Notes: generated by a model from the letters alone, not told the origin. A stretch of DNA of 35,984 nt from Elusimicrobiota bacterium (GCA_016207565.1 JACQPK010000303.1:1-35984); one strand, 5' to 3'; shown: positions 2,438 to 35,930, counted from the first letter of the stretch. Numbers and translations: made by a program.

Positions 2438-2565
2438 TTCAGAGCCTCTTGAGAGGAGCGGGCCGCGCCGCCTGCCCGGCGGCCGGCCGAAACGCTCCGG
2501 GCTCCCTTCGGTTCACGCCGGCCCGTGCGCCTTCGCCGACACATTCCGACTCAAGAGGCTCTGAA
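2438..2565. repeat. Perfect 16-nt inverted repeat (TTCAGAGCCTCTTGAG ... CTCAAGAGGCTCTGAA) in a divergent intergenic region
   Basis: Arms at 2438-2453 and 2550-2565, read directly. Confidence 0.85.
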
Positions 2566-2668
2566 TCCCTCCGCCCGGCGGTTGAGAAACGTTCATTCCG
2601 GGACGCCCCTTTTTCGCTTGAGGGGATTTCTCGTGGGCGCCACCCCGTCTCGCGGCTACCCTTCGAGC

Positions 2669-3250
2669 ATGCACAAACCAAACGCCGTCTCCCGGATGTT
2701 CTTAGCCGTGCTCACGCTGGCGTCGCTCGTCGCCGAGAGTCGCGCGGGCGGTTGTTCTGAGGCGTCCGTCGTGCTCCCGGCCTCGACCAGGATCACCGTC
2801 GCGGACGGGTCATATAAGGAAGCCGAGGAGCTCAGGGCGGGCGACATGCTGCTGTCGTACGACGATGTCGCCGAGAAGCTCGTGTCGAGCTCGCTCACCG
2901 TCGCGCCTGGCCCCGCGCAGCCCCGAGACCTCGTGGGCCTCATCAGCTCCGAAGGCAACGCGATATTCATCTCGACGTCGTCGGGCCTGCAGATCCTGCT
3001 TGGGGGCGGCTTTCGGCCCGTGAGCGAGCTGAAGGTCGGTGACGACGCGACCGTGCTGAGCACTGCCTCCGTTTCGGGCCGGACCTTCGTTCCCGCGAGG
3101 ATCAACGCCCTGGACGTCGCCCGGGCAGACCCGCACGCGGGCTACAGCGGCGCCATGCCCGCGCTCGTGGAGTTCGATGCTCCGGCCTATTTCGCCGCCA
3201 ACGGCTTCGTTTTCCGGCGCCACTGCGGCTCGGGGAAGCGAACGCCATGA
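2669..3250 (+). CDS. Exported Hint (hedgehog/intein)-like domain protein, apparently lacking catalytic residues
   Basis: Signal peptide, then TRITVADGSYKEAEELRAGDMLLSYDD ... GGFRPVSELKVGDDATV ... DAPAYFAANGFVFRRH, the block layout of Hint domains. Confidence 0.6.
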   Translation: MHKPNAVSRMFLAVLTLASLVAESRAGGCSEASVVLPASTRITVADGSYKEAEELRAGDMLLSYDDVAEKLVSSSLTVAPGPAQPRDLVGLISSEGNAIFISTSSGLQILLGGGFRPVSELKVGDDATVLSTASVSGRTFVPARINALDVARADPHAGYSGAMPALVEFDAPAYFAANGFVFRRHCGSGKRTP

Positions 3251-4437: not shown

Positions 4438-6045
4438 ATGAAACGACGCGGGCGAGTTCCACGATTGATCGCGCTGACGATGTCGGTCGGGGGAAGCGAT
4501 AGGGCGCTGGCGGCCTGGCTCGGCGCGACGCTGATCGCCGCTGCGTGGGCCTGGGGGAGCCGGGAACGCGCTCCACGTCCCGGACCGTCGCGGGTCGCCT
4601 TCCCGTCGCGCCCGACCGTCCCGGTCCCGCCGAGCCCCGCGGGCGAAGGGCTCGTCGGCGTGCTCGCCGGCGATCGTTTCGATCGGGGGCGCCCGGTCCG
4701 AGATACCGCGTCATCGTTATCGATCGGCTCGTTCGGCCGCCTCCGTTCGTTGACGCGGGCGGCTGCGCCGGCCGGCTCGCGGCTGCTCGCCGGGATGCCC
4801 GCCGCGGGAGAAGCGCCCGAGGCTGAGGCGACGCCGGGTCGCCGAGTCGCTCCGCCGCCGGACGCGCAGGCTCCGGCGCGCCCGAAGACGGGCGACGCGG
4901 GCGCGGCCATCGTCCGGTGGCGCGGTGAGGTCGACGCCGGACCCCGGGGAATTCTTCGCGACGGTCTGAACTCCCGGCCGGCGTCGAACGCCGACGGCGC
5001 GCGCCTCGCGGTCTCCCCCCGATTCGTCCCAATTCGCCGCGCCCCTCGGCCGACCGCCGCGCGGCTCCGGACGGGGGTGCTGCGCCCCGTCTCCGTCTTC
5101 GGCTCAAGGCAGGCGTCCGCGAGGTCGGAAGTCCCAGTCGAGACTCGGATCGGGGTCGCCGGCCCCTACCCGGGGCTCGGCCGAGCGCCGGGGGGCACGC
5201 TGACGCCGCTCGTCCGGCCGGCGGATGTCGCCTCGCCGGCGGACGTGGCGACGCTTGCGGCCGGGCGCAGCGGCGGCGCGTCACCTCGCGCCGCCCCGCC
5301 CGCAGGCGACATGGAGGGTTGTCTGCCCGCCGGGACGGACCTGGAGCGGCTTCGAGCCTGGGAAGGAAACGCGGTGGGGACTGTCCGAGTTCGAAACGCG
5401 CACTGGGGCGAGCAGTCGTACACGGTCGACCGCCTGATACTGCCCGAGGAGAGCGCGTACCGGACGATGACGCTACACGGCGGCGGCGTTTCGATAGCCT
5501 ATGACCTGAAGAGCCCGGCGCTTTGGGGCGACCTCTGCGACGGCTACTCGGTGAGCGGCTATGATACGAGCGGCGACACGTCGGCGTTGAGGAGCTACAC
5601 GGTAAGGCCCACGGCTCCGCGCAAGCTCTGCGATTTCCTGGCCGCGGCGGCGGGCAATCCGAGCCGGGTCTACCCTGCCGGCCGTCTCTGGCAGATGAGG
5701 CTCCTGCTCCCTCCCGGCGCGTCGGGCGTGGGCTTCAACGCCCCCCATCACGGCTGGGGAGAGCGTCTCTGGGGATTCACCGAGTCCGATGATCTTGACG
5801 CGCTGCGGCACTCGATCGCGAGCATCGCGGTCGGCATGCCGGGCTGGGGAGTGGGAGCGGACACGGTTTTGGCGGGGCATCTCAAGCTGCCGGGAGCCGC
5901 CGCCGCGCCTCGTTGGCTCTACCTCAACATCGCCGTGCCCGCTACCGCCCAGCAACAGGGAATCGAGCTGGGCCAGCTACAGTTCAACTTCGTCGTGACC
6001 GGCCTCGAGGCCTTCGAGGCCTGGCGCGAGCGCTGCGCACGCTAG
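4438..6045 (+). CDS. Hypothetical signal-anchored protein with disordered linker and globular C-terminal domain
   Basis: ATG 4438; TM helix; C-terminal region from about MEGCLPAGTDLERLRAWEGNAVGTVRV looks folded. Confidence 0.7.
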   Translation: MKRRGRVPRLIALTMSVGGSDRALAAWLGATLIAAAWAWGSRERAPRPGPSRVAFPSRPTVPVPPSPAGEGLVGVLAGDRFDRGRPVRDTASSLSIGSFGRLRSLTRAAAPAGSRLLAGMPAAGEAPEAEATPGRRVAPPPDAQAPARPKTGDAGAAIVRWRGEVDAGPRGILRDGLNSRPASNADGARLAVSPRFVPIRRAPRPTAARLRTGVLRPVSVFGSRQASARSEVPVETRIGVAGPYPGLGRAPGGTLTPLVRPADVASPADVATLAAGRSGGASPRAAPPAGDMEGCLPAGTDLERLRAWEGNAVGTVRVRNAHWGEQSYTVDRLILPEESAYRTMTLHGGGVSIAYDLKSPALWGDLCDGYSVSGYDTSGDTSALRSYTVRPTAPRKLCDFLAAAAGNPSRVYPAGRLWQMRLLLPPGASGVGFNAPHHGWGERLWGFTESDDLDALRHSIASIAVGMPGWGVGADTVLAGHLKLPGAAAAPRWLYLNIAVPATAQQQGIELGQLQFNFVVTGLEAFEAWRERCAR

Positions 6046-6076
6046 GAATCGGAGCGGGTGCGTGCCGGCGGAAACA

Positions 6077-6805
6077 TTAACCATCGAAGTAGCGGAAGCC
6101 CTTCCCCGGCACCGCCTGCAGCCGGTCGGCGAGCTCTTGGGGCAGCTTGCGGCGAAGGTTTCGCAGATGCGAGTCGACGAGGTTGTCGACGGCGACGGTG
6201 CGCCAGAGTTTGGAGAGGAAGAATTGGCGGCTCAGGATCTTCGGCCGGTTCTTCACCATGCAGTAGAACAGGTCGAACTCCTTGTTCGTGAGGTTCGCGA
6301 TGCTGAGGTTCCGGAAGCGCACGAGGTTCGCGTCCGGGTCGATGATCACGTCTCCCGCGACGAGCTCTCCTCCGTGGCCCTCCTCGAAGGCGACCCTCTG
6401 GAGCAGTGCCTGCGCCCACATCGCGAGCTCCCGCGGCGCGACCGGCTTGACGAGGTATTGATCAGCCCCCGCGTCGAAGCCCGCCGCCTTGTCATCGAGC
6501 TCACCCTTCCCCGTGAGCATGATGATCGGGGTGCGCGCCAGGACTTTGTGCGCCCGCGCCTTGCGGGAGAACTCCAGGCCGCTGCCGTCGGGCAGGGCGA
6601 TGTCGAGGATGACGAGGTCCGGGCGCTCCGACTGGAAGAGATGCAGTCCCACCGCGATGGTATCGGCCTCCAGCACGCGATGGCCGAGGCCCGCGAGCGC
6701 CAGCGCGGCGTAGCGGCGAGTCTCCAAGTCGTCCTCGATGAAGAGGAGGGTCTTGCCCCCGGCTGGCTTCCGAGGTCTGGGGACGGCGTCTCCTTCCGGT
6801 CCCAT
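6077..6805 (-). CDS. OmpR/PhoB-family response regulator (REC + winged-helix DNA-binding domain)
   Basis: TLLFIEDDLETRR, DLVILDIALPDGSGLEF, PIIMLTGKG, LVKPVAPREL; C-terminal LTNKEFDLFYCMVKN...VDSHLRNLRRKLP...GKGFRYF. Confidence 0.93.
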   Translation of the reverse strand: MGPEGDAVPRPRKPAGGKTLLFIEDDLETRRYAALALAGLGHRVLEADTIAVGLHLFQSERPDLVILDIALPDGSGLEFSRKARAHKVLARTPIIMLTGKGELDDKAAGFDAGADQYLVKPVAPRELAMWAQALLQRVAFEEGHGGELVAGDVIIDPDANLVRFRNLSIANLTNKEFDLFYCMVKNRPKILSRQFFLSKLWRTVAVDNLVDSHLRNLRRKLPQELADRLQAVPGKGFRYFDG

Positions 6806-6869
6806 GTCCGCGCTGGCAGTATAGAGGGGGACCGCCGAATTCTCAAGACCCTCACATCGAGGAAATCCG

Positions 6870-6941
6870 AGCCCACGGCGAGAGTCGAACTCGCGACCTA
6901 CCGCTTACAAGGCGGTTGCTCTACCGCTGAGCTACGTGGGC
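6870..6941 (-). tRNA. tRNA-Thr (anticodon TGT)
   Basis: Reverse complement GCCCACGTAGCTCAGCGGTAGAGCAACCGCCTTGTAAGCGGTAGGTCGCGAGTTCGACTCTCGCCGTGGGC folds as a cloverleaf; 7-bp acceptor stem; TTCGACT T-loop; loop CTTGTAA; CCA not encoded. Confidence 0.95.
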
Positions 6942-7153
6942 GATTGTGCTTATTGTACTGGAAGAATCCCGCAGACGCCAGGAGTCGCGGGCGGGCGTGT
7001 CGCGGGCGGGCGGGCGGGGTGCCGTACTTGGTGCCCTCAGAGTCCCAGCATTCTCCGGACCTCAGCGTCGAGCTGAGCGAGAAACACCGGATCGACGGCC
7101 CCAACCCTCGCCCCAACCCCTGTCTTGTCGATCGCACGAAGCTGCCCCACGAG

Positions 7154-7480
7154 AACCCCAAGTTCATCAATGTTCAAGGAAAGCTGACCGACACCGCGGG
7201 TAGTTTCTTGACCGGAATCAAGACCGTCACGTTCAGACTTTACACGAGTTCCACTGGTGCAGTTGGGACGCCGATCTGGACCGAGAGTCAGTCCGTGGCA
7301 CTCTCGAGCGGCGTGTTCAAAGTCTCGCTCGGCACGACAACCACCTTGGACTCGTTGTCCTTCAGTCAACTGATATGGACGAGCCTGTCAACCCGACCTT
7401 GGTCTCCGTCGGAGAATTCTCTCCGATGCGGTCCGTCCCGGGAAAATCCAGGACAAGAGGGCGAGGCTGTTCTCGACGGT
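7154..7480 (+). pseudogene. Frameshifted fragment of a surface-protein domain of the 'FINYQGKLTD' type
   Basis: NPKFINVQGKLTDTAGSFLTGIKTVTFRLYTSSTGAVGTPIWTESQSVALSSGVFKVSLGTTTTLDSLSFSQLIW, continuing in another frame as DEPVNPTLVSVGEFSPMRSVP. Confidence 0.6.
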
Positions 7481-7513
7481 GAATCAACCTGATATTCGCG
7501 TGTCGTAAAGCCT

Positions 7514-7547
7514 CTTATCACGACCTCCCATTCCGCCTGAACGATTC
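7514..7547. repeat. 34-bp dispersed direct repeat, copy 1
   Basis: cttatcacgacctcccattccgcctgaacgattc; one mismatch to 18455-18488. Confidence 0.9.
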
Positions 7548-7626
7548 ACCTCCGTAAGAATGCCCCCCCGAAACCGCGCGGCGCAAGGCGCATCGCCGCG
7601 AGTCGGCCGCTTATCTGGGAGAGACC

Positions 7627-7730
7627 GCGGCCGCGCACGCGGGCGCAGGCGCGCCCGAACGCGCCGCCTCACGCCTCGGTCGCGGGGTCGGTCGGAGCTT
7701 GGACGTCGTCATCAGGGGCCGGCGGATCTA
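7627..7730. repeat. 104-bp perfect direct repeat, copy 1
   Basis: gcggccgcgcacgcgggcgcaggc...ggggccggcggatcta, identical to 12768-12871. Confidence 0.97.
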
Positions 7731-7884
7731 TCCCTTCGTATAAGCCGGGACCCGCCTGGGGATCATCGCCTTCGGCCGCCGGAGGGCTCCGCGCCGGAAG
7801 GAGCTTCGGGAAATCCGTCGAAAGCCCGAGATGGGCGAGCACCCTTGCGATCTGTCTGTCCTCGGGGGCGACGAGGGAAGAACA
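7669..7884 (-). pseudogene. Probable C-terminal remnant of an IS91-like transposase
   Basis: Hand-translated open frame: CSSLVAPEDRQIARVLAHLGLSTDFPKLLPARSPPAAEGDDPQAGPGLYEGIDPPAPDDDVQAPTDPATEA*. Frame not in the supplied ORF list. Confidence 0.6.
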
Positions 7885-8142
7885 TCAGAGCGCCAACGCG
7901 AAAATCAGGCCCGCTTACCGGAAGGACACCATCGGCACGGTCCGAAATACGCATCGGAAGGGAATAACGCTGAAGAGCGGCAAACTTTTCCATCGCTCGC
8001 GCGCTAAGCCGGCGTGGTCGAGCGGCCCATCGCGATCCCCTGCTTGTGCTAGCGCGACGGCACTTACCGGACGGCCGACTACCTGCTCGGCCTGGCGCTG
8101 ACGAGAGACCGCAGGGCGGTCGAAGTCCCCAAAGCCGACCCG

Positions 8143-9246
8143 TCACTTGATGTAGCGGCCGAACGACTTGCTCAACTGTAGGTTGAGTATCTTGTACGAG
8201 CTTAGCCCGTTGAAGAACGAGTTTAGAGGGGCGTCTATGAAGGATCCGGTCAGATTGGCCGATAGGCCCCAAGGACGGAAGGTCAAATTGACCCCGAGAT
8301 GGATCGGATTCAGCGCCCGCAGGTATTGCTGCTCGGTCACCGGCCCGCCGAGAGTGTTGATCGGTTTTCCGTAGCGGAGCTCGCGCCCGTTGAGGAGCTC
8401 ATCGGGATCAGTAACGGCGTTGACGGCGCTCGAGACGAAGGACGCCATAATGTCGGCCCTCAGGTATGGGTTGAGCCGGAAATGCTTCCCCAAGGGGATG
8501 CCCCCCTGGATCCCGAAGAAGCCTCCGTAGTCCACCGAGCTTCCGGTCCAATCCCGGGAGATGCACTTATAGCCGGCGAGCGTCTCCGGACATTCGGTGC
8601 TGTCAGCGGCTGAATACTGGCTCAAGAACAAAGATGTCCCGGAGGCGCGCGTGAAGTGGACCACCGGTCCCAAGAAAAGGCTTCCATGCAGTCGGTCGCT
8701 ATTGCCGCCGCCGAAGTTTATGCCGAGTTGGATTCCAACAGACTGGCTCCCATGAGACTGCGCGCGCTGCAAGATGATGCTGTTGGCAGCTCCGACGAGC
8801 GCGGGCTTCGACGCGTAGGCGGCCCGGAAACCGTCGGTCGTCCGAGCTTCGATGCGTCCGGGGCCCAATCTCGCGAAGAGAACGGATGCGAACAGGGTCG
8901 TGTGATCCGAGACCGCGCGGTCGTACTGGGCGGTGGCGCCCCACCCCGCCATGCCCTGCGCCACGGTGCCGTCGATGATGCGGTTTCCCGGCACCAGCGC
9001 GAGCGGGTCTTGAAACTTTTCATCCACCGCGGGCTTCTGCAGGCGGAAGTAGTTGAGCGAAGTCGATAGCCTGTAGTCCCCCTCATTGAAGACCATCATG
9101 GGGAGGGGGGGATTCGAGTACAACGCCTGCAAGGCCACCTCGGCGTTGGTCATGGGCAGGCCGCCCTGGGCCAGCCCCGTGTCGAAGCCGAGGCAGGGCC
9201 TCGTCCATAGTAGCGGCAGGACCGAAAGCCATAGAGGAGGTCGCAT
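8143..9246 (-). CDS. Probable outer-membrane beta-barrel protein
   Basis: Signal peptide; alternating strands (YRLSTSLNYFRLQ, HLGVNLTFRPWGLSANLTGSF), ends LNLQLSKSFGRYIK. ATG 9246 overlaps the upstream stop (TGATG). Confidence 0.65.
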   Translation of the reverse strand: MRPPLWLSVLPLLWTRPCLGFDTGLAQGGLPMTNAEVALQALYSNPPLPMMVFNEGDYRLSTSLNYFRLQKPAVDEKFQDPLALVPGNRIIDGTVAQGMAGWGATAQYDRAVSDHTTLFASVLFARLGPGRIEARTTDGFRAAYASKPALVGAANSIILQRAQSHGSQSVGIQLGINFGGGNSDRLHGSLFLGPVVHFTRASGTSLFLSQYSAADSTECPETLAGYKCISRDWTGSSVDYGGFFGIQGGIPLGKHFRLNPYLRADIMASFVSSAVNAVTDPDELLNGRELRYGKPINTLGGPVTEQQYLRALNPIHLGVNLTFRPWGLSANLTGSFIDAPLNSFFNGLSSYKILNLQLSKSFGRYIK

Positions 9247-10181
9247 CAACGCCCCAGTTTCGCCAAGTCGCCCTTGCCGGGCGACTTCCCCTGCACCAGC
9301 GTGGCGATGACGGTTCCATTCTCCCCGAATTCGGAAACCTCGATGACGCCGAGCTGTCTCTGCGTGTGTCCCGTCACCTTGCCGGTGGTAGGGCTGCGGA
9401 TCTCCCGGCCGAGCCGGTAGACTTTCAGCCGGTCGCCGATGTTGAGGCCGGAGTCCTCTCCGGCGTCCAGATAGATCTTCTCATCCTCCACGTCCGCCAC
9501 CCGGCAGGACCAGGGCTGCTTGTTGACCTGAGCTTCGATGTTGAGCGCGAGCCGGCTGATGGCGGCGCGGAGAGCGTCTCCCTCCAGCCTCTCCCCGAAG
9601 CCCGCCTGGGAGCCGAACCCCATGATCTCCCCCGTCTTGACCCGCGCGGAGCCCTGTCCGCTGTCCGCGTGGAGGACCCTCCCGGTCTCCGCGTCGACCA
9701 CGCGCACGTCGACGGTGACCGTGGCCTCCTGCTTCTTGCTGTTCCCGAGGATGAACTCCTTGCCGCGCGTCTCCCTTCCGAAATTGGAGATTGTGCCCAC
9801 CACGACGGCGTTGAGACCCAGGACGCTTCCCATCTTGGCCGCGGACTCGTCGTCGATGGCGCCGGTCAGGCCCTTGCGCTGCTCCGCCAATACCTGGTCG
9901 AGCTTCTGGCGCTCCACGACGATGAAGCTGCCCGTCTTGACCAGCTCCGTGGTCAGAATGTCGGCCGCCGCGCCGCCGAGTCGCCCCTGGCCGTAGGCGG
10001 TCTTGTTTTCGAACTCGACCACGCCAACGCGCCGGCGCGGGCCGCCGTAGCGTCCGGCGGCCCTCGTCGTCGGGTGGGCCGAAATCGCCTGCTCCATGGT
10101 GGTCTTTTGGGCCGTCCCGCAGGCCACGGGGAGCGCAGACAACGCCACGGCCAGGCATCGGAGCGCTGATCGGAGCCTCAT
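9246..10181 (-). CDS. CsgG-family lipoprotein
   Basis: Lipobox ...LPVACGTAQ; RRVGVVEFENKTAYGQGRLGGAAADILTTELVKTGSFIVVERQKLDQVLAEQ...GLNAVVVGTISNFGRE. Confidence 0.85.
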   Translation of the reverse strand: MRLRSALRCLAVALSALPVACGTAQKTTMEQAISAHPTTRAAGRYGGPRRRVGVVEFENKTAYGQGRLGGAAADILTTELVKTGSFIVVERQKLDQVLAEQRKGLTGAIDDESAAKMGSVLGLNAVVVGTISNFGRETRGKEFILGNSKKQEATVTVDVRVVDAETGRVLHADSGQGSARVKTGEIMGFGSQAGFGERLEGDALRAAISRLALNIEAQVNKQPWSCRVADVEDEKIYLDAGEDSGLNIGDRLKVYRLGREIRSPTTGKVTGHTQRQLGVIEVSEFGENGTVIATLVQGKSPGKGDLAKLGR

Positions 10182-11014
10182 TTGACCGTCACCTCCAGAG
10201 CCTCCTCGGTGACCCGGTCGATCGTGGCGTGGATCGCGGTCGAGTCCTCAATCCCCTTCGCGAGCTCCTTGGTTGAGATCCCCTTGAGCCGCGCGTCGAG
10301 CCGCGCGGAGCCGGCGACGAAGAAACGGAGATGAACCGCCGCCACCCCCGGGACACCGGCGATCGCCGCCCTAACGCGATCCACGGCTCTCATGTTGCTC
10401 GCCCCGCTGAGGAGTATCGTCACCGGCGCGTCGCCGTCGAGCGCCGCCAGGAGCGCCTGCACGAGCTGCTCCCCGGCTTTCTTGCCCGCTTTAGTGAAGG
10501 CCTTCATCAGCGCCGGCCGGCGCGTCGCGTCCATCCCGGAGGCGGCCACCTCCGCCGTCGCAAGGACCTCCTGGGACTCAGCCCGATAGGCCTTGGCCAC
10601 GAGCGCGACCCGATGGCTGACGAGCGTCTCGTAGCCGGTGTCGGCGACGGGCGCGCCCTCGGCCGTGCCGACGACGAGGATCTCCGCGTCCAACCGCTTG
10701 CCCAAGGACGCCGCCCCGCTCAGGTCTCCCGCGGCGACCTGTTTGCGGAGCTCGGCCGTTTCGACGGCCATGAGGGCGCTTCGTTCGACGACGCTCAGGC
10801 CGGCCTCCTTGAATGCGCGGCTGACGGCATCGGCTGCGTAGGAGAAACTCTCGCCCTTGGCTCCATCCGCCGAGGATTCCTTCAGGACCACGGCGATCCG
10901 GGCGGAGCCCGCCGCGGCTCTCGCCCTTGCCTCCGCTCCCGTCTCGGCGGAGCTCGGCAAGAAGAGGGCCGACAGCAACGCTCCGGCGCAGAGGGCGGAT
11001 AGGATCGGGCTCAT
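10178..11014 (-). CDS. Exported CsgG/LpoB-related protein
   Basis: Signal peptide; AGLSVVERSALMAVETAELRKQV...LGKRLDAEILVVGTAEG resembles the CsgG/LpoB layout. ATGA overlap with neighbours. Confidence 0.6.
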   Translation of the reverse strand: MSPILSALCAGALLSALFLPSSAETGAEARARAAAGSARIAVVLKESSADGAKGESFSYAADAVSRAFKEAGLSVVERSALMAVETAELRKQVAAGDLSGAASLGKRLDAEILVVGTAEGAPVADTGYETLVSHRVALVAKAYRAESQEVLATAEVAASGMDATRRPALMKAFTKAGKKAGEQLVQALLAALDGDAPVTILLSGASNMRAVDRVRAAIAGVPGVAAVHLRFFVAGSARLDARLKGISTKELAKGIEDSTAIHATIDRVTEEALEVTVK

Positions 11015-11673
11015 TGCGGGAATTTATCCACCAGCTTCCGGGCGGCCTCCCGCGATTCATCCCGCAGGTCGACGTCTGATATCTCGTCGGTGAAGTCCGC
11101 CGCTCGTCTGGCCGCGCTGCCCGGCAGGAGTTTCTTCGAGCTGTCCTTGACGGACTTCACGACCTTGCCCGCGATGTTGATCGCGGCCTTGCCGACGGCA
11201 TCGGGCCCCGCGCCTCCGGTGACGCCGAACTCATCCCCATCGAAGACGGGCTTTCCGTCCGAGGTATCGCAGTGGAGGCTCAAACGGACCCTGCTCACGC
11301 TCAACAGTAGGGCCGATTTGAAAGCGTACTCGAGCACCGTGCCGAAGCAAAGGACATCGGCGCGGACGGCCCGGCTGAGTTTCTTGAATGGCACCGTTCT
11401 GATCTCGCCGCCGTCACGGATTCCCAGGCGGTCGAGGGCCGCGTCGGTCTCCTTCTCGTCCTGGACACGGTACATGCGCCGGCGGAACTCAGCGGCCAAG
11501 TATCTGCGAACGATCTCAGGAGCTTTGACGCTGTTGGAGTTGTTTGTCAGGAGGAGCAGGGCGATGGTGCTGCCGCCATAGGGAAGGGGCTGCCTCGGAG
11601 CCGTGGAAGCGCAGCCTGTCGTGGCGCCTACGGCGAACAGCATAGACAGTCTACAGACTCTGCGCGACATCAC
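11011..11673 (-). CDS. Lipoprotein, GNA1162/DUF799-like
   Basis: Lipobox TTGCASTA; STIALLLLTNNSNSVKAPEIVRRYLAAEFRRRMYRV...; first gene of the coupled operon. Start is GTG 11673 or ATG 11670. Confidence 0.55.
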   Translation of the reverse strand: MMSRRVCRLSMLFAVGATTGCASTAPRQPLPYGGSTIALLLLTNNSNSVKAPEIVRRYLAAEFRRRMYRVQDEKETDAALDRLGIRDGGEIRTVPFKKLSRAVRADVLCFGTVLEYAFKSALLLSVSRVRLSLHCDTSDGKPVFDGDEFGVTGGAGPDAVGKAAINIAGKVVKSVKDSSKKLLPGSAARRAADFTDEISDVDLRDESREAARKLVDKFPQ

Positions 11674-11835
11674 GGCGGAGTTTAACAGGCGCCCCTGAAA
11701 TCATCAAGTCGCTGTCGCCGCCACGGCAAGATAGTATGTTTTCGAGATCGATGGGGCCGGCGCCGTGCACCATCTGGAACTTCTAGGTCTCCGAGTCGTA
11801 CGGGCAATTCCTGAAGTAGCGACGTTTCATCTACA

Positions 11836-12681
11836 CTACTCCCGGCAGCGCGGTTGGGCGTGGCGGGAAACCAGCGGATTGCACTTCGGGAGCCGCCGGT
11901 CGGCGGCGCGGGCAGGATGCTGAGGCGGGACCCTCTTCGCAGGCGCGGAAGCGCCCGTCGGAGCATTCCCTCCGCCTACATCCCCCGACGGCAGGTTCTC
12001 GACGGGCTGAGCGAGTGCCGCAGCGTCGGGGGTCGCCGGCGGCGCCGCAGCGCGCCGCGGCGCGGGGCGCATGCGCTCAGGGTTCCCGCGCGATGAGCTA
12101 AGCAGGGTCCGACCCAGCATCACCGCCGCGGCCGTGGCAGCCGCGACGGCGCCGATGACCCACGCCCGCCTCGATCCTGGAGCGTGCGGCGCAGGAGCGC
12201 TGCCGGCCGCGGACGCCTGCGGAAGGATCGGCTGCGCCGGAGCGCCCGGCGCGAGCCGGACCGCGCGGGGGATCTTCAATACCGCCAAGCCACCTACGAT
12301 TCGCGGCACGATGTCGCCAATCCTCTCCGCGGGAGCCTGTATCGATGCAGCGGCGCCCATCGCTTCGCGCCATTCGGGCTGGCGCTGCTGGAACTCGGCG
12401 TGGGTGATGCCCTGGAGGACCGGTATGAACGGCTTGGAGCCCTCGTGCGCGCGAACGACTTCCTTAGTCACCTGGTTCGAGCCGATGGACCGCGGCGTGA
12501 CGAGCACGACCACCGCCGCCGAGTCCTCTACCGCCTGTCCGGTTTGCAGGAGATAAGACGCACCGGGCATGCTGTCGCGCTCGTAGTACCATGTCTGGTA
12601 GCCGGCGGACTCAAGGCCGCGGGCCAGCTCCACGGCGAGGGCCTCGTCGCTCCCCACGTGGCTGATGAAGATATGGCCCAC
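11836..12681 (-). CDS. TIR-domain protein with C-terminal TM helix and Pro/Ala-rich tail
   Basis: HIFISHVGSDEALAVELARGLESAGYQTWYYERDSMPGASYLLQTGQAVEDSAAVVVLVTPRSIGSNQVTKEVVRAHEGSKPFIPVLQGI; TM AWVIGAVAAATAAAVML. Start moved to GTG 12681 because TATCCT lies 6 nt upstream. Confidence 0.85.
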   Translation of the reverse strand: MGHIFISHVGSDEALAVELARGLESAGYQTWYYERDSMPGASYLLQTGQAVEDSAAVVVLVTPRSIGSNQVTKEVVRAHEGSKPFIPVLQGITHAEFQQRQPEWREAMGAAASIQAPAERIGDIVPRIVGGLAVLKIPRAVRLAPGAPAQPILPQASAAGSAPAPHAPGSRRAWVIGAVAAATAAAVMLGRTLLSSSRGNPERMRPAPRRAAAPPATPDAAALAQPVENLPSGDVGGGNAPTGASAPAKRVPPQHPARAADRRLPKCNPLVSRHAQPRCRE

Positions 12682-12687
12682 GGGCGA

Positions 12688-12716
12688 AGGATAATCCACC
12701 GCCAGCGTCGCCGCAA
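12688..12716 (-). promoter_or_regulatory. Putative promoter TTGCGG-N17-TATCCT for the TIR gene
   Basis: On the minus strand; TATCCT ends 6 nt before GTG 12681. Confidence 0.45.
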
Positions 12717-12767
12717 GGGGCGCTTCACGGCGCCTTCAAGTGCTGCCGCGCCCGAACGATTGGCTGG

Positions 12768-12871
12768 GCGGCCGCGCACGCGGGCGCAGGCGCGCCCGAA
12801 CGCGCCGCCTCACGCCTCGGTCGCGGGGTCGGTCGGAGCTTGGACGTCGTCATCAGGGGCCGGCGGATCTA
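12768..12871. repeat. 104-bp perfect direct repeat, copy 2
   Basis: Identical and same orientation as 7627-7730. Confidence 0.97.
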
Positions 12872-12872
12872 G

Positions 12873-13226
12873 CCTCCGCAGAAGACCAGAGCGAAGCCCG
12901 CGGCGCAGCGGAGGCCCGAGACCCCCGCCGAACGGGCCGCGGACTGGAAAAAGGTCCGCGGGAATCCGGCCTATACGTTCTCCAACAGCAATCAAATCCG
13001 GCGCAAGGGGGGCGAGCCGATCCGTGTCGACAGCGCCGAGGGCAAGCAGATCCAGGTCATCCTGGACCGCCAACGAAAGGACCGCGATGCCAACAAGAAG
13101 CAGTCCGAACTGTTCTGGAAGATGACCCGCGCCAAGGACGCCTTCGAGGCGCTCGCCGTCCTGAAGGAGGCGAAAGCCAAGGACCCCGACGCGGGAACGC
13201 CCAACACCGTCTACAACAAGAAGTAG
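12873..13226 (+). pseudogene. 5'-truncated hypothetical gene abutting the 104-bp repeat
   Basis: Frame ...ETPAERAADWKKVRGNPAYTFSNSNQIRRKGGEPIRVDSAEGKQIQVILDRQRKDRDANKKQSELFWKMTRAKDAFEALAVLKEAKAKDPDAGTPNTVYNKK*; no start after the repeat-derived TAG at 12870-12872. Not in the ORF list. Confidence 0.6.
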
Positions 13227-13333
13227 CCCGCCGGCGACGGTCCGCTTCCTCTCAGCGGGACCTACGGCCGCCGGCCTCCGCGGTGCCGCTTGACCCCTTG
13301 GCACGCGCGAAAGCAGGGGGCATCCTCCCTCTG

Positions 13334-14344
13334 ATGCTCTCGCTCTTGATCTGGCTCTCCACGACCGGCTTCGCGCAGGAGCGCCTGCCCAAGGTCTACG
13401 GCTTCAACTTCCCGGTCTGGAACGAAACCGCCTACGAGAGCAAGACGGCGTTGAAGGGCCTGAAACGGCTCCGCAAGACCGGGGCCCGGTGGGTGGCGCT
13501 CACTCCCACCTGGTACGTCGACGACCCTCGTGCCTCGACGCTCTCCCGCTGGAACGCTCCGGAGCCGGGCGAGTCAAAGACCCCGAGCGACGACTCGGTC
13601 CGCACCGCGCTGATGTGGGCGAAACGCCTGGGCCTCAAGACGATCCTCAAGCCCCACGTCGACGTGAAGACCGGCGAGTTCCGCGGCTCGCTCTCTCCCG
13701 ACGACGAGGACGCGTGGTTCGCGGGTTACGAAGCGTTCATCCTCCACTACGCCCGGATCGCGCAGCAGGAGGGGTGTTCGCTCTTCGTGATCGGGACCGA
13801 GTTGAGCAGCCTCTCGGGACTCGGGCACGGCAAACGGTGGGATCGTCTCATCGCCCTGATACGGGAGGATTTCTCGGGCCCGCTGACCTACGCGGCAAAC
13901 TGGGACGCGGTGCATCTGACCCCGTTCTGGGAACGGCTCGACTACATCGGCGTCGACGGCTATTACCCGGTCCCGGGCGCCGACGCCGGCCAGATGCGTG
14001 CGGGTTGGGCTCTACACCGGACGCACCTCGGCCTCCTGGCGGCTCGCTGGGGGATGCCGGTCCTGTTCACCGAGATCGGCCTGAGCAGCCAGTCGGGGGC
14101 GAACATGCGCCCTTCGGAGTGGAAGCCTTTCGGCGACGTCGACACACAGGTGCAAGCCGATTACCTCAAAGCCTTCCTGGACGTCTTCGACTCTCAAGAC
14201 TGGTTCGCGGGTTTCCTGTATTGGCCCTGGGAACCCGATTCGAAGAAGGGAGGTTCTCGGGAGCGGGACATGACCGTCGAGGGCAAGCCGGCGTCGGCAG
14301 TCCTCAAGAGATACTTCGACCGGTTCCGGAGCAGCCCCCCGTGA
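13334..14344 (+). CDS. Exported TIM-barrel glycoside hydrolase, GH113-like
   Basis: VYGFNFPVWNETAYES...ARWVALTPTWYVDD...LFVIGTELSSLSG...LTYAANWDAVHLTPFWERLDYIGVDGYYPV...MPVLFTEIGLSSQSG...FAGFLYWPWEPD. Confidence 0.8.
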   Translation: MLSLLIWLSTTGFAQERLPKVYGFNFPVWNETAYESKTALKGLKRLRKTGARWVALTPTWYVDDPRASTLSRWNAPEPGESKTPSDDSVRTALMWAKRLGLKTILKPHVDVKTGEFRGSLSPDDEDAWFAGYEAFILHYARIAQQEGCSLFVIGTELSSLSGLGHGKRWDRLIALIREDFSGPLTYAANWDAVHLTPFWERLDYIGVDGYYPVPGADAGQMRAGWALHRTHLGLLAARWGMPVLFTEIGLSSQSGANMRPSEWKPFGDVDTQVQADYLKAFLDVFDSQDWFAGFLYWPWEPDSKKGGSRERDMTVEGKPASAVLKRYFDRFRSSPP

Positions 14345-14500
14345 ACGAGTAGCGACGTTGCGCCCGCAGAGCAAGACGCGGCGTTTCTCAACGACACGCG
14401 AAGACACGCAGGCGACTTCGCCGGGCTGAAGGCTTCGCCCATCGATGGCGTCAAGGGCCGAAAGGCCGGCAGGCGAGCAGACGTTCGCCTCGAGCCCGCG

Positions 14501-15085
14501 ATGGAGCGCGCACCTTCGCACAGGCGCGCCAGCGCGGTGTTTACCGCCCTGGCACCCGCCGCCGCACTCGCAGCGCACGGGGTCGCCTCGCCGGACCCCG
14601 TGAGCCAAGCATTTTGGCTCTGGTCCGTCGCCGTGGCGGCCCGCCACTCGTGGGAGGAGACCCGCGGCGAACTATGGTCCTACTTCGGCCGGGTCAGCGG
14701 CAACCCGCTACTCAGCCGCCTCGGACCGGTCCCCGGCTTCGTCGTGATCGTGCTGCCCGCGCTCGCCCTCCAGGTAACGGCCGCGACCCTCGGCCTTCTC
14801 GGAAACGACCCGTTTTGGCTCGCGGTTCTCATCGGGGGACGGATCGGGGATGCGGTCTTCAGCCACTTCATCCCGGCGGCGAGGGGATTCACGCCGAATC
14901 CGGGCCTGCCGACGGCTTGGGTCTATCTCGTCGACGGTCTCGCGATAGCGCTGACCTTCAGCGCGGCGGTGGCGCAGGGCTGGACGGGGCTTCTTGTCGG
15001 TGCGGGCTTCTTCGCCGTGCTGGTCCCGGTATTCCGGCTCACGGGAAAGCTGTTCCGCCGAGTTTGGCACTTGCCCCGAGCCTAG
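14501..15085 (+). CDS. Multi-pass membrane protein, possibly HXXEE-domain family
   Basis: About five hydrophobic segments; HSWEE (HxxEE) in AARHSWEETRGELW. Confidence 0.5.
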   Translation: MERAPSHRRASAVFTALAPAAALAAHGVASPDPVSQAFWLWSVAVAARHSWEETRGELWSYFGRVSGNPLLSRLGPVPGFVVIVLPALALQVTAATLGLLGNDPFWLAVLIGGRIGDAVFSHFIPAARGFTPNPGLPTAWVYLVDGLAIALTFSAAVAQGWTGLLVGAGFFAVLVPVFRLTGKLFRRVWHLPRA

Positions 15086-16237: not shown

Positions 16238-16392
16238 CTTCCCAGGAGCCCGGCCTGCCTACGGAACAGGCCGTCCGAGACGACCGCGTGCACGTGGAGA
16301 TGCAGATTCAGCGTAGAGCCGAAGCGCTGAATGAAATGGATCTGCGCCGCGGTCCCCGCGCCGAGCTTGCGGGAAGCCGGAGCGCCTGTTAC
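16238..16392 (-). pseudogene. IS91-family transposase internal fragment
   Basis: Hand translation: APASRKLGAGTAAQIHFIQRFGSTLNLHLHVHAVVSDGLFRRQAG, the IQRFGS.LN.H.H.H..V.DG.F block. Frame differs from the listed ORFs. Confidence 0.8.
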
Positions 16393-17890: not shown

Positions 17891-18445
17891 ATGAGAATCT
17901 GGGTCGTTCTCGCCGGCCTCGCCCCAGCCCCGTCGTTCGCGCAGGAGTCCACCTCCGCGCTCTCGCAGTTGTCCCCGGACGCTGGAGCCGCGCAGGAGTC
18001 CGTGCAGCGGCTAGGCGGACGCGAGCGGATCCCCGTACGCAAGAAGTTCCAGACGGTTCAGGATGGCCGGCAGTTCCTTGACGGCTTCACGCTCGGCGAA
18101 TGCCGCAACCGCCGCGAGATGCGTGACGAAAGCGGCCGCTCCGCCCCCGGGACGATTCGCGTGTCGCTCATGATCAACGCCTTTGTAGAATCGTCTTGGT
18201 GGCCTCACATCATGGTCGTCGATGGCGAGTGGGACGCCGTCACGCTGATCCGGTTCCTGCTCGAAAAGGACGGCCACCAGGTTCTCGAGGAGCACAACGG
18301 GGTGGACGCGCTCGCTGAGCTCGGCGTCGAGCCGAAGAAGGAAGGGGCGGCGCTGCCGGACCTCATCATCCTCGATGTGATGATGCCGCTCATGGACGGG
18401 TACGCGACGGCGACGAGGCCCATCCCGGTCGTAGCGGCCAAGTAG
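17891..18445 (+). pseudogene. Decayed response-regulator receiver domain fused to an unrelated N-terminal region
   Basis: IMVVDGEWDAVTLIRFLLEKDGHQVLEEHNGVDALAELGVEPKKEGAALPDLIILDVMMPLMDGYATATRPIPVVAAK*: acidic pocket altered and C-terminal half missing. Confidence 0.6.
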
Positions 18446-18454
18446 ACATAACGC

Positions 18455-18488
18455 CTTATCACGACCTCCCGTTCCGCCTGAACGATTC
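18455..18488. repeat. 34-bp dispersed direct repeat, copy 2
   Basis: cttatcacgacctcccgttccgcctgaacgattc. Confidence 0.9.
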
Positions 18489-18531
18489 GGCTCCTTCCAA
18501 GGTCGCCGCGACCCTGGCCGGACGCTGAGCC

Positions 18532-32912: not shown

Positions 32913-34016
32913 TCAGTCGAGCCAGTCCTTTTCCTTGAGCTTTTGCGGCAGGTACTTCTTGGTCAGGTACTGGAAGTCCTTGTTCGCCAAGGCGTCCAGC
33001 TCGAACTTGAGCCCGCTCGAGAGCATCCGCTTGATCTCGACCTGCCACTCCTTCTTTTGGAACCAAGGGTAGTTCAGCAGCTCCTTCGCGCGGCCGATGT
33101 CCTTGTCGTTGAGCTTGATGCCGACGTTGCGCGGCAGGTCGTAGTGCTCCGGGTCGGCGCTGGAGAGGCCGACGAACTTCGCGTCCGGGATCGCCATGCG
33201 CTGGCTCTCGAACGCGAGGTTGATCGAGCCCTGCTTGACGACCGAGTAGATGTAGTAGCCCCAGGGGTCGTTGTCGCCGAGCACGTAGACCGGAAGCCTC
33301 TTCTCCTCGTGGAGCCGGCGGGCCAGCCGGCGCACGCCGCGGGGCGGCTGTCCGTTGCCGGTGAGGAGGACGCAGTTGTACTTCTTCCAGAACTTGTCCT
33401 CGGCGAGGCGGTTCCACTGCGTGCCCTTCTCGACGAGGAGGATGAAGTCGGCCGTGCACTTCTTGATCTTCACGTACTCGTCCTCGACGATCGAGGGGAC
33501 CGAGTAGCCGCCCTTGCCGAGTTTGCCGCAGTCGACGCGGTCGCCGTCGTCCTCGAGCACGAGCGGCCCGATGACGGTGCCGCCGTTCTCGGCGCGGACA
33601 TGGAGCTCCTCGCGCAGCGCCTCGAGACTGACCTCCAGGTCCTCGATCACGGGATCGGACTCGTCTTGCGTGTCGAAGCTGTTCTCGTGCGAGTCGCCGA
33701 GCGTGTGCTTCGTCCGGTAGTAGATCTCCCGGAGGCTGGTGGTGAGCTCGGCCTGCTGCAGCTCGTTGAGGGCGTCGGCCACGAGCATCGTCTGCATGAA
33801 CTTCTTGGCCATCGCCACGTTGAAGAAGGAGCGGGCCTGGGTGTTGTCCCCCATCTCGATGATACCGCGCTTCTCGTTGAACTTCACGTTCGAGAGGGAG
33901 CGGACCGGGATCTCGATGGTCGGGTCCTTCTTCTTGTTGGCGGCCGCGATCACGAGGTCCGCGAGCCCGACGAGCTTCTTGGCGACGTCGCCGCCGCCGC
34001 GCGTTCTGGTGGCCAT
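32913..34016 (-). CDS. top6A: DNA topoisomerase VI subunit A (Spo11-like)
   Basis: TSLREIYYRTKHTLGDSHENSFDTQDESDPVIEDLE (catalytic Tyr region); Toprim LPVYVLGDNDPWGYYIYSVVKQGSINLAFES; start abuts the top6B stop. Confidence 0.95.
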   Translation of the reverse strand: MATRTRGGGDVAKKLVGLADLVIAAANKKKDPTIEIPVRSLSNVKFNEKRGIIEMGDNTQARSFFNVAMAKKFMQTMLVADALNELQQAELTTSLREIYYRTKHTLGDSHENSFDTQDESDPVIEDLEVSLEALREELHVRAENGGTVIGPLVLEDDGDRVDCGKLGKGGYSVPSIVEDEYVKIKKCTADFILLVEKGTQWNRLAEDKFWKKYNCVLLTGNGQPPRGVRRLARRLHEEKRLPVYVLGDNDPWGYYIYSVVKQGSINLAFESQRMAIPDAKFVGLSSADPEHYDLPRNVGIKLNDKDIGRAKELLNYPWFQKKEWQVEIKRMLSSGLKFELDALANKDFQYLTKKYLPQKLKEKDWLD

Positions 34017-35930
34017 TTACTTTTTCCCCTTCTTCTTCGCCTTGGCTTTCGGCTTCGACTTCGCCTTCTTCGCCGTCTTCGCGCCCTTTGCGGCTTTCTT
34101 TGCGCCCTTCGCGTTTTTCCGTTCGTCCGTGAGCTCGGCGGCGGGCGTCTCGGGAACGGAGACGACCGCGACTCCGGGGCTCGCGTTCGCCTCGAGCGGA
34201 GTTTCCACAGGCACCTCGCCCTCGATCCCCTCGGGCGTTACGATGATCGAATGAGGCAGGCCCGCCGGCGCGGTGCTCTTGTCCGTGAGCTCGTCGGTCA
34301 GTTGGCCGCCGGTGCGCTTGTTGGCGATGTCGATGAGCTGGTCCCGGAGCTTCTTGTCGGCGAGCTTGCCGCCCTTGAGGCTCTTGCACGCGGCGACGAC
34401 CTCCTCGATATAGAGCTCGAAGATGTTGCGGCGCTTGAGCTCGTGGTGCGCGCGCTCGCGTCGCTTGAGGAACACGCCGAGGCGCCGGCCGGCCTCCCGC
34501 AGGCCGAGGGTGATCTCCTTGCGGATCTCGTCGTAGTCGGCGATGGCCTCCTTCGACTCGCTCGTGAAGGGCACCCAGACGGACGCCATGTGGACCATCA
34601 CGACCATCGGCCCGGCGGGAGGCGCCCCGCGCGACTGGGCGACCCCGTAGTTCTTCCACGTCGTGTCGAGCACCGCCTTGAAGGTCGCGCACGCCGACTG
34701 CTGGTACAGGAGCGGCACGCGGTTGGCGAAGCGGATCACGCGCGCGAGCTCGTTATCGTCGGACTCGTGGGATTCCCCTTCGGCGAGCGGCTTCTTCTCC
34801 GTCGCGGCCGCGGCGGCGGCCTGCTGCTCCGGGTGCTTGCCGAAGGCGAGGCCGACCTCGATGATGAACGGGTTGCCGCGATAGACGGCGGGCGGCCGGG
34901 TGACCGCGGTGTAGAACTCGCCCTAGATCTGCTTGTAGAGGCCGGACAGGATCGCCTTCTCGCCGATCGGCGAGAGGCAGTTCGTCGGCGGCGCCATGAG
35001 CTTGGTCGCCTGGATCGCCTTGTAGACCTTTTCGGCCTCCTGGCCGACGACGTCCTTCGGACGCTTGTGCGGGTTGAGCCCGGCGGCCTTGCAGATCTCC
35101 TCGGCGGTGGCCGCCGAGACGCGGCTGAAGTCGGTCGACAAGAAGCCGCTGAGCCAGTGGGACTTCGTGTCCTGCAGCATCTTGAGGAGCATGCCGAGCT
35201 CGATGCCGTAGGGGTGCGGCTTGATCTCTCGCGGCGGCTCCGGGAGCTGCTGCATCGTCCGGGGGTAGACCCGGGTCTCGCCGTCCGGCGCGACGTAGGT
35301 GAACTTCGCGTGCGGGTTGCCGATCGAGGTGAGCTCCATGTATTCGTCGACGGAGGCGCGGCCCTTCTGGTAGCGCCCCTCGAGCTCGATCGTGACCTGC
35401 GTGCCGCGGTGGGACTCCCACTCGATCTCCTTCTTCTCGAGGATGATCGGCTCGTTCTTCTTCGTGTCGATCTGGACCTCGAAGTAGTGCGCGGGCACGT
35501 TCTGGCCCGTGCGGGAGATGATCTTCACCGGTTTGCCGGTGGTGAGCTGGCCGTACATGCCCGCCGCCGAGATGCCGATGCCTTGCTGCCCGCGGCTCAT
35601 GCGGAGGCGGTGGAACTTGGAGCCATAGAGGAGCTTCGCGAAGATGCGGGGCACCTGCTGCCGGACGATGCCGGGTCCGTAGTCGACCACGGTCACGCGG
35701 AACCGGGTCGCCTCGCTGATTCTAGGCGGCGGCGCGTCGCCCTCCCCGACCGCCTCGAGCTTCACCACGATCTCGGGGAGGATGCCCGCCTCCTCGCTGG
35801 CGTCCAGCGCGTTGTCGACGGCCTCCTTCACCGCGGTGAGCAGCGCCTTCCTCGGGTTGTCGCAGCCGAGAAGGTGGCGGTTCTTCGTGAAGAACTCGGA
35901 GGCGGAGATCTCGCGCTGCTGCTTGCCCAT
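34017..35930 (-). CDS. top6B: DNA topoisomerase VI subunit B, frame interrupted by one in-frame TAG at 34923-34925
   Basis: ISASEFFTKNRHLLGCDNPRKALLTAVKEAVDNALDASEEAGILPEIVV (GHKL), H2TH region ending CLSPIGEKAILSGLYKQI, then TAG, then in-frame GEFYTAVTRPPAVYRGNPFIIEVGLAFG (transducer). Confidence 0.93.

Follow-up and report, generated by a model that had tools for sequence, protein, structure and literature searches.

The window analysed here is the entire contig C196, 35,984 nt, of a 4.95-Mb Elusimicrobiota MAG in 519 contigs with 77.5% completeness and 5.4% contamination. It carries a block of five genes between two short direct repeats (Table 1). All of them lie on the minus strand, as the sequence-only reading had claimed, in the order TIR, GNA1162-like, FlgT-like, CsgG-like and barrel. 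The extent it had given, 8143–12681, is too short, as the TIR frame begins with GTG at 12699. The four envelope genes are joined consecutively by 4-nt overlaps and are probably translationally coupled. A gap of 162 nt, between 11673 and 11836, separates them from the TIR gene, and no terminator-like site was found within it.

Table 1. Features of the gene block, its flanks and the related repeat copies (window coordinates unless a contig is named).
Feature	Position	Strand	Description or basis
IS91-type remnant (copy 1)	7506–7884	minus	~70 last transposase codons, stop, ~165-nt 3′ tail
Direct repeat copy 1	7627–7733	.	104 nt exact, 107 nt at 99%
Five block genes	8143–12699	minus	all between repeat copies 1 and 2
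Outer-membrane beta-barrel protein, 368 aa	8143–9249	minus	AlphaFold2 and Foldseek
CsgG-like outer-membrane lipoprotein, 311 aa	9246–10181	minus	PF03783, E 1.6e-29
FlgT/FlgO-like periplasmic protein, 278 aa	10178–11014	minus	alignment with homologues
GNA1162-like lipoprotein, 220 aa	11011–11673	minus	PF05643 above cut-off; lipobox ATTGC by reading
TIR-domain protein, 287 aa	11836–12699	minus	PF13676, E 1.6e-16
Direct repeat copy 2	12768–12874	.	inner IS91-tail piece, without outer end
5′-truncated gene fragment	12873–13226	plus	3′ part of duplicated-domain gene; relative on C153
IS91-family Y2 (HUH) transposase fragment IHFIQRFGSTLNLHLHVHAVVSDGLFRRQAG	16249–16341	minus	PF04986, NCBIfam, profile
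Copy 4	18441–18494	minus	outer ~50 nt only of IS91-type tail
Copy 3	C482:22104–22319		~217 nt, about 90–91% identical; 90% to copy 1 over 219 nt

The earlier assignment of one gene to the CsgG family holds, at 103 bits for PF03783 against a curated cut-off of 20.8. This protein also has a weak C-terminal FlgT_C match, a profile match to CsgG structures and, by reading, a lipobox. Aligned with its homologues, the FlgT-like protein lacks their N-terminal domain; the long homologues match FlgT_N or FlgO weakly, below cut-off. AlphaFold2 models the 368-aa protein as a barrel with modest confidence (pLDDT 60.6), and the best Foldseek matches of this model are OmpT, porin and FapF barrels with E down to 1e-7. 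Pfam and NCBIfam searches of the five block genes found no curli subunit, CsgE or CsgF.

From family membership alone, we infer the roles in an envelope complex. The CsgG-like lipoprotein would form a ring or channel associated with the outer membrane. Its partners in the periplasm would be the FlgT-like protein, in its shortened form, and the GNA1162-like lipoprotein, and the barrel may be its partner in the outer membrane.

The TIR assignment is likewise upheld, with 61 bits for PF13676 (TIR_2) against a cut-off of 28. The protein consists of an N-terminal TIR domain (10–97), one transmembrane-like stretch (by reading) and a proline-rich tail. The domain aligns with structures 7uxr and 3h16 and places the Glu of TKEV at the usual catalytic place; the Trp before this Glu is not conserved. 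If the stretch is read correctly as an anchor, the protein would sit in the inner membrane with its TIR domain in the cytoplasm. It has weak profile matches to the TIR models of defence systems, and the four other block proteins gave no PADLOC match, ThsA, SAVED effector and Argonaute partners included. It is probably an independent effector, NAD-cleaving or signalling, and not a dedicated part of the complex.

The FlgT-like, GNA1162-like and CsgG-like genes together are a conserved Elusimicrobiota operon. At 80 CsgG loci in relatives, the GNA-like gene is found at 69, the FlgT-like gene at 58 and both at 53; each ORF was assigned to its best profile only, and many of these contigs end nearby, so the counts are lower bounds. 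The named relatives at these loci are nearly all Elusimicrobia MAGs, which places the window in Elusimicrobiota. The commonest order is FlgT-GNA-CsgG (46/80), and the window's order GNA-FlgT-CsgG occurs at none.

A search of relatives for the whole block, proposed along with the cassette idea, turned up this trio without its companions. The barrel is at 0 of the 80 loci, many of them on contigs that end nearby, and so is TIR; the neighbourhood checks used small purpose-built profiles that can miss distant TIR proteins. Across 235 genomes of the class, no contig with one of the listed FlgT-like matches also bears a TIR domain, the window excepted. Barrel homologues occur in three of these genomes besides the window's own, the best one being 38% identical and not adjoining the operon on its short contig. 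Both the TIR–envelope link and the barrel–operon link are singletons.

Besides this block, the MAG carries a second operon, at C77, with the standard order FlgT-GNA-CsgG. A tree of 82 CsgG proteins puts the window protein in a 13-row Elusimicrobiota clade (100/99), apart from the C77 copy and beside the copy from a genome of the same family. The closest FlgT-like homologue lies on the contig of that neighbouring copy, ~20 kb off. Both paired branches are long, so the pairing may be artificial and the exact place is unsure. The GC3 of the block, 0.79–0.89, is near that of the flanks, 0.80–0.97, and its composition is thus not foreign. As a separate observation, the CsgG-like fold is greatly expanded: at E ≤ 0.001, the window's own genome (G000) has 12 places with a relative of this protein, and a same-family genome has 18.

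As to the repeats, a direct comparison of both stretches confirmed that 7627–7730 and 12768–12871 are identical and co-oriented 104-mers. A T/G mismatch and then CC follow, extending the match to 107 nt at 99%. This pair is the sole direct-repeat family of ≥20 nt within 5000–15000, and hence is not a chance occurrence. The peptide end described on the minus strand, DPPAPDDDVQAPTDPATEA and its stop, and the inverted repeat GGCGCG-TTCGGG-CGCGCC are both present, but the hairpin is only as stable as shuffled sequence (z about −1).

Elsewhere in the genome there is one other long copy, copy 3 on C482, which matches copy 1 past the 104-mer as far as 7506. The short copy 4 is 92% identical to copy 1 over 40 nt and 82% to the C482 copy over 50 nt. 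The outer end is common to copies 1, 3 and 4, while their inner stopping points differ; copy 2 lacks the terminal, ori-side ~120 nt, which one-ended transposition requires. The oriIS end of such elements has secondary structure and adjoins a GTTC/CTTG-type target tetranucleotide. CTTG is near the outer end in copies 3 and 4 and absent in copy 1, and the predicted folding is no better than that of shuffles.

Searched at the relatives' CsgG loci, as had been advised, the 104-nt sequence gave short and weak matches only. It had no match in viral contigs and, as DNA, only short, weak and chance-like ones in plasmids. Matches on C73 and G003:C79 were weak and read as G+C-rich chance. A known RNA family within the repeat was dismissed, as Rfam matched the tRNA only. 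So was a plus-strand gene with the repeat as its 5′ end (MSPETARRKARGRESAAYMGD...), for which other genomes of the class gave no convincing encoding, the minus frame being IS91.

The proposed origin of the repeat, the 3′ end of a transposase gene of the IS91 family, is borne out by a profile and by plasmid IS91 C-termini. The stop-to-stop frame 7672–7884 on the minus strand, with its stop inside the repeat, matches at E 7.8e-5 an IS91 profile built from four plasmid IS91 proteins, and the next match among the searched frames is at E 0.42. Plasmid IS91 C-termini align at 7854–7762 minus with 42% over 31 aa, which is weak alone. A 63-aa tail query against plasmids matched 63 records at E 1–10, those listed being mostly IS91 transposases or unannotated places. 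In a Tn3-annotated plasmid match, the segment lies ~25 aa from the stop, as in an IS91 transposase record, and in the window the distance is 23.

The fragment at 16.2 kb matches Y2_Tnp (PF04986) above cut-off at 16255–16341 minus over 29 positions, plasmid IS91 transposases with 58% over 31 aa (E 6e-4), the ISCR and IS91 models in NCBIfam, and the four-protein IS91 profile at E 6e-7. An intact IS91 transposase was to be looked for, and the Y2_Tnp search of the 77.5% complete assembly returned this single 29-position match only. Y2/HUH transposase sequence is therefore present as fragments only.

Both repeats had been taken as transposase 3′ ends. This is right for copy 1, which would be the 5′-truncated tail of a transposase gene, together with the 3′ flank and, near 7506, the outer end. 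Copy 2 has only the last ~20 codons, since its peptide ORF then runs antisense to the plus-strand gene fragment. The minus ORF 12810–13304 was rejected as transposase beyond those codons for the same reason that its DNA is plus-strand coding. On C153, an intact frame of 338 aa ends in a stretch with 84% identity to 12915–13226, and the substitutions between them number 11/11/29 at the three plus-strand codon positions. Copy 2 has the TIR side on one flank and a truncated gene on the other, and would be a 107-nt internal piece, most simply from local duplication or filler insertion. Both block repeats are best explained as scraps of one dead IS91-family element.

Several observations concern the surroundings. 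The intact frame at C153:1269–2138 (L125–L127) has two domain copies with the motif FSNxNxIRRxxG and no Pfam match, and its 3′ part is a parent-like relative of the fragment beside copy 2. Further debris beside copy 1 is a gene fragment at 7126–7492 (INVQGKLTDTAGSFLTGIKTVTFRLYTSS...) near tRNA-Thr. The ORF at 17891–18445 looks chimeric, with a secreted-protein start and a response-regulator receiver piece, and stops just before copy 4. On C482, a short run at L004 7000–7100, just left of copy 3, TIRLHRVLKAPPERI, looks like the beginning of an SRPBCC-type protein, and a truncated C-terminal gene piece lies right of it.

More remotely, the secreted proteins at L004 1494–3855 on C482 and at 2525–3250 in the window contain a motif that recurs (TSCFLKGTKILMADGTYKNIEEIQAGE..., PASTRITVADGSYKEAEELRAGD...) and reads like a Hint-type domain. 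Adjoining ORFs at 32913–35930 are, by reading, candidates for the A and B subunits of DNA topoisomerase VI. Integration at tRNA-Thr (6869–6941) was considered and discarded: the block lies 5′ of the tRNA, and the repeats include no duplicate of the tRNA end. An empty site was sought through GH113 and its neighbours without success, as the GH113 homologues are 43–51% identical and no other tested window gene matched in the two homologue loci examined.

We hold it fairly probable that the block between the repeats is resident: a paralogue of the FlgT-like/GNA1162-like/CsgG-like operon that is diverging fast, has been extended by a barrel gene and has a TIR gene as neighbour, amid IS91 and gene fragments. 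The sequence-only reading had instead proposed a 5-kb mobile cassette. When IS91/ISCR elements transpose by one end, the process begins at oriIS and can take adjoining DNA along, and the resulting circles can recombine into resident homologous DNA, leaving partial duplicates (PMC13393415, PMC13023784). Here, a circle with the block would have used the 104 nt of homology to recombine with an IS91 tail already in place, which would leave direct repeats at both ends, by the route described for ISCR1 (PMC13023784). The profile match of the repeat to the IS91 tail, the outer end of copy 1 facing away from the block, which a one-ended transfer of it would require, and the relatives' CsgG loci without TIR and barrel are consistent with this. 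However, copy 2 is without the outer end that a circle from oriIS would bring, so the circle route needs a further deletion. Besides, the assembly is without an intact transposase, the core operon is conserved with a CsgG of the same lineage, and the composition is native-like. The cassette is thus unlikely. Local duplication of the copy 1 scrap needs less than a circle plus a deletion, which favours the resident operon, and two further IS91 scraps and several pieces of genes are present anyway in the region of this presumed duplication. The block appears resident instead of mobile, although some points run against this. The perfect identity over 104 nt indicates a recent event at both block ends, the window's gene order has no counterpart in the 80 loci, and the long CsgG branch leaves the tree place unsure. 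Moreover, the search of relatives turned up no orthologous site, and none of them shows the block at this place. Residency is what we infer.

Two other accounts bear on the same data. A misassembly, in which the block is misjoined between two copies of a 104-nt repeat near the short-read k-mer limit, would suit a MAG this fragmented and incomplete, as well as the sharp end of the copy 1/2 identity after 104 nt. The repeat would be bridged by paired reads, or by single reads of more than 104 nt, however, and GC3 and the CsgG phylogeny agree with the same lineage, so we regard it as quite improbable. A dedicated system, in which TIR and CsgG/FlgT/GNA1162/barrel act jointly, perhaps by sensing phage or damage to the envelope and coupling this to NAD depletion, has a similarly small chance of being right. 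The TIR gene is directly upstream on the same strand with no terminator-like site between, its product has a membrane-anchor-like stretch, and it weakly matches the defence models; but TIR is missing from the relatives' CsgG loci and from the contigs of the listed FlgT-like matches in the 235 genomes, the partners of known TIR defence systems are unmatched, and a literature search found no paper with both terms. Very improbable is the combined case of a membrane-anchored TIR wired to the CsgG/FlgT-like/GNA1162-like/barrel complex, forming a new system for defence or stress that senses the envelope and was spread by IS91-type rolling-circle transfer.

If the TIR link were true, cytoplasmic TIR signalling would be joined to an outer-membrane complex. 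The case mainly shows how IS91 debris beside an ordinary operon can mimic a mobile cassette. The trio itself is conserved across Elusimicrobiota without an assigned function in the literature found, and many loci are listed for its study.

Compared with known systems, the remnants resemble the IS91/ISCR (HUH Y2) elements in the C-terminal transposase frame, the Y2 motif fragment, the outer end common to several copies and the differing inner ends. They differ in being fragments with no intact transposase, no recognisable terIS and only a candidate oriIS, and in that one copy has no outer end. The TIR protein is like Thoeris ThsB, TIR-SAVED and TIR-pAgo in its domain and weak profile matches, but is putatively membrane-anchored, and the block encodes none of the partners of those systems (ThsA, SAVED, Argonaute).

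The CsgG-like protein shares with the curli channel the PF03783 domain, the lipobox (by reading) and the profile match to CsgG structures, whereas the block has no gene for a curli subunit or CsgE/CsgF. In Neisseria, a lipoprotein cluster has a DUF799 (GNA1162) gene and a CsgG-family gene close by, as here, with another middle gene and no TIR or barrel noted (PMC5282872). The nearest parallel is the Elusimicrobiota operon itself (L140–L207). The window differs from it in gene order, in the FlgT-like protein without the N-terminal domain, and in the barrel gene added downstream and the TIR gene upstream, but has the same three families adjacent on one strand and, as often there, overlapping.
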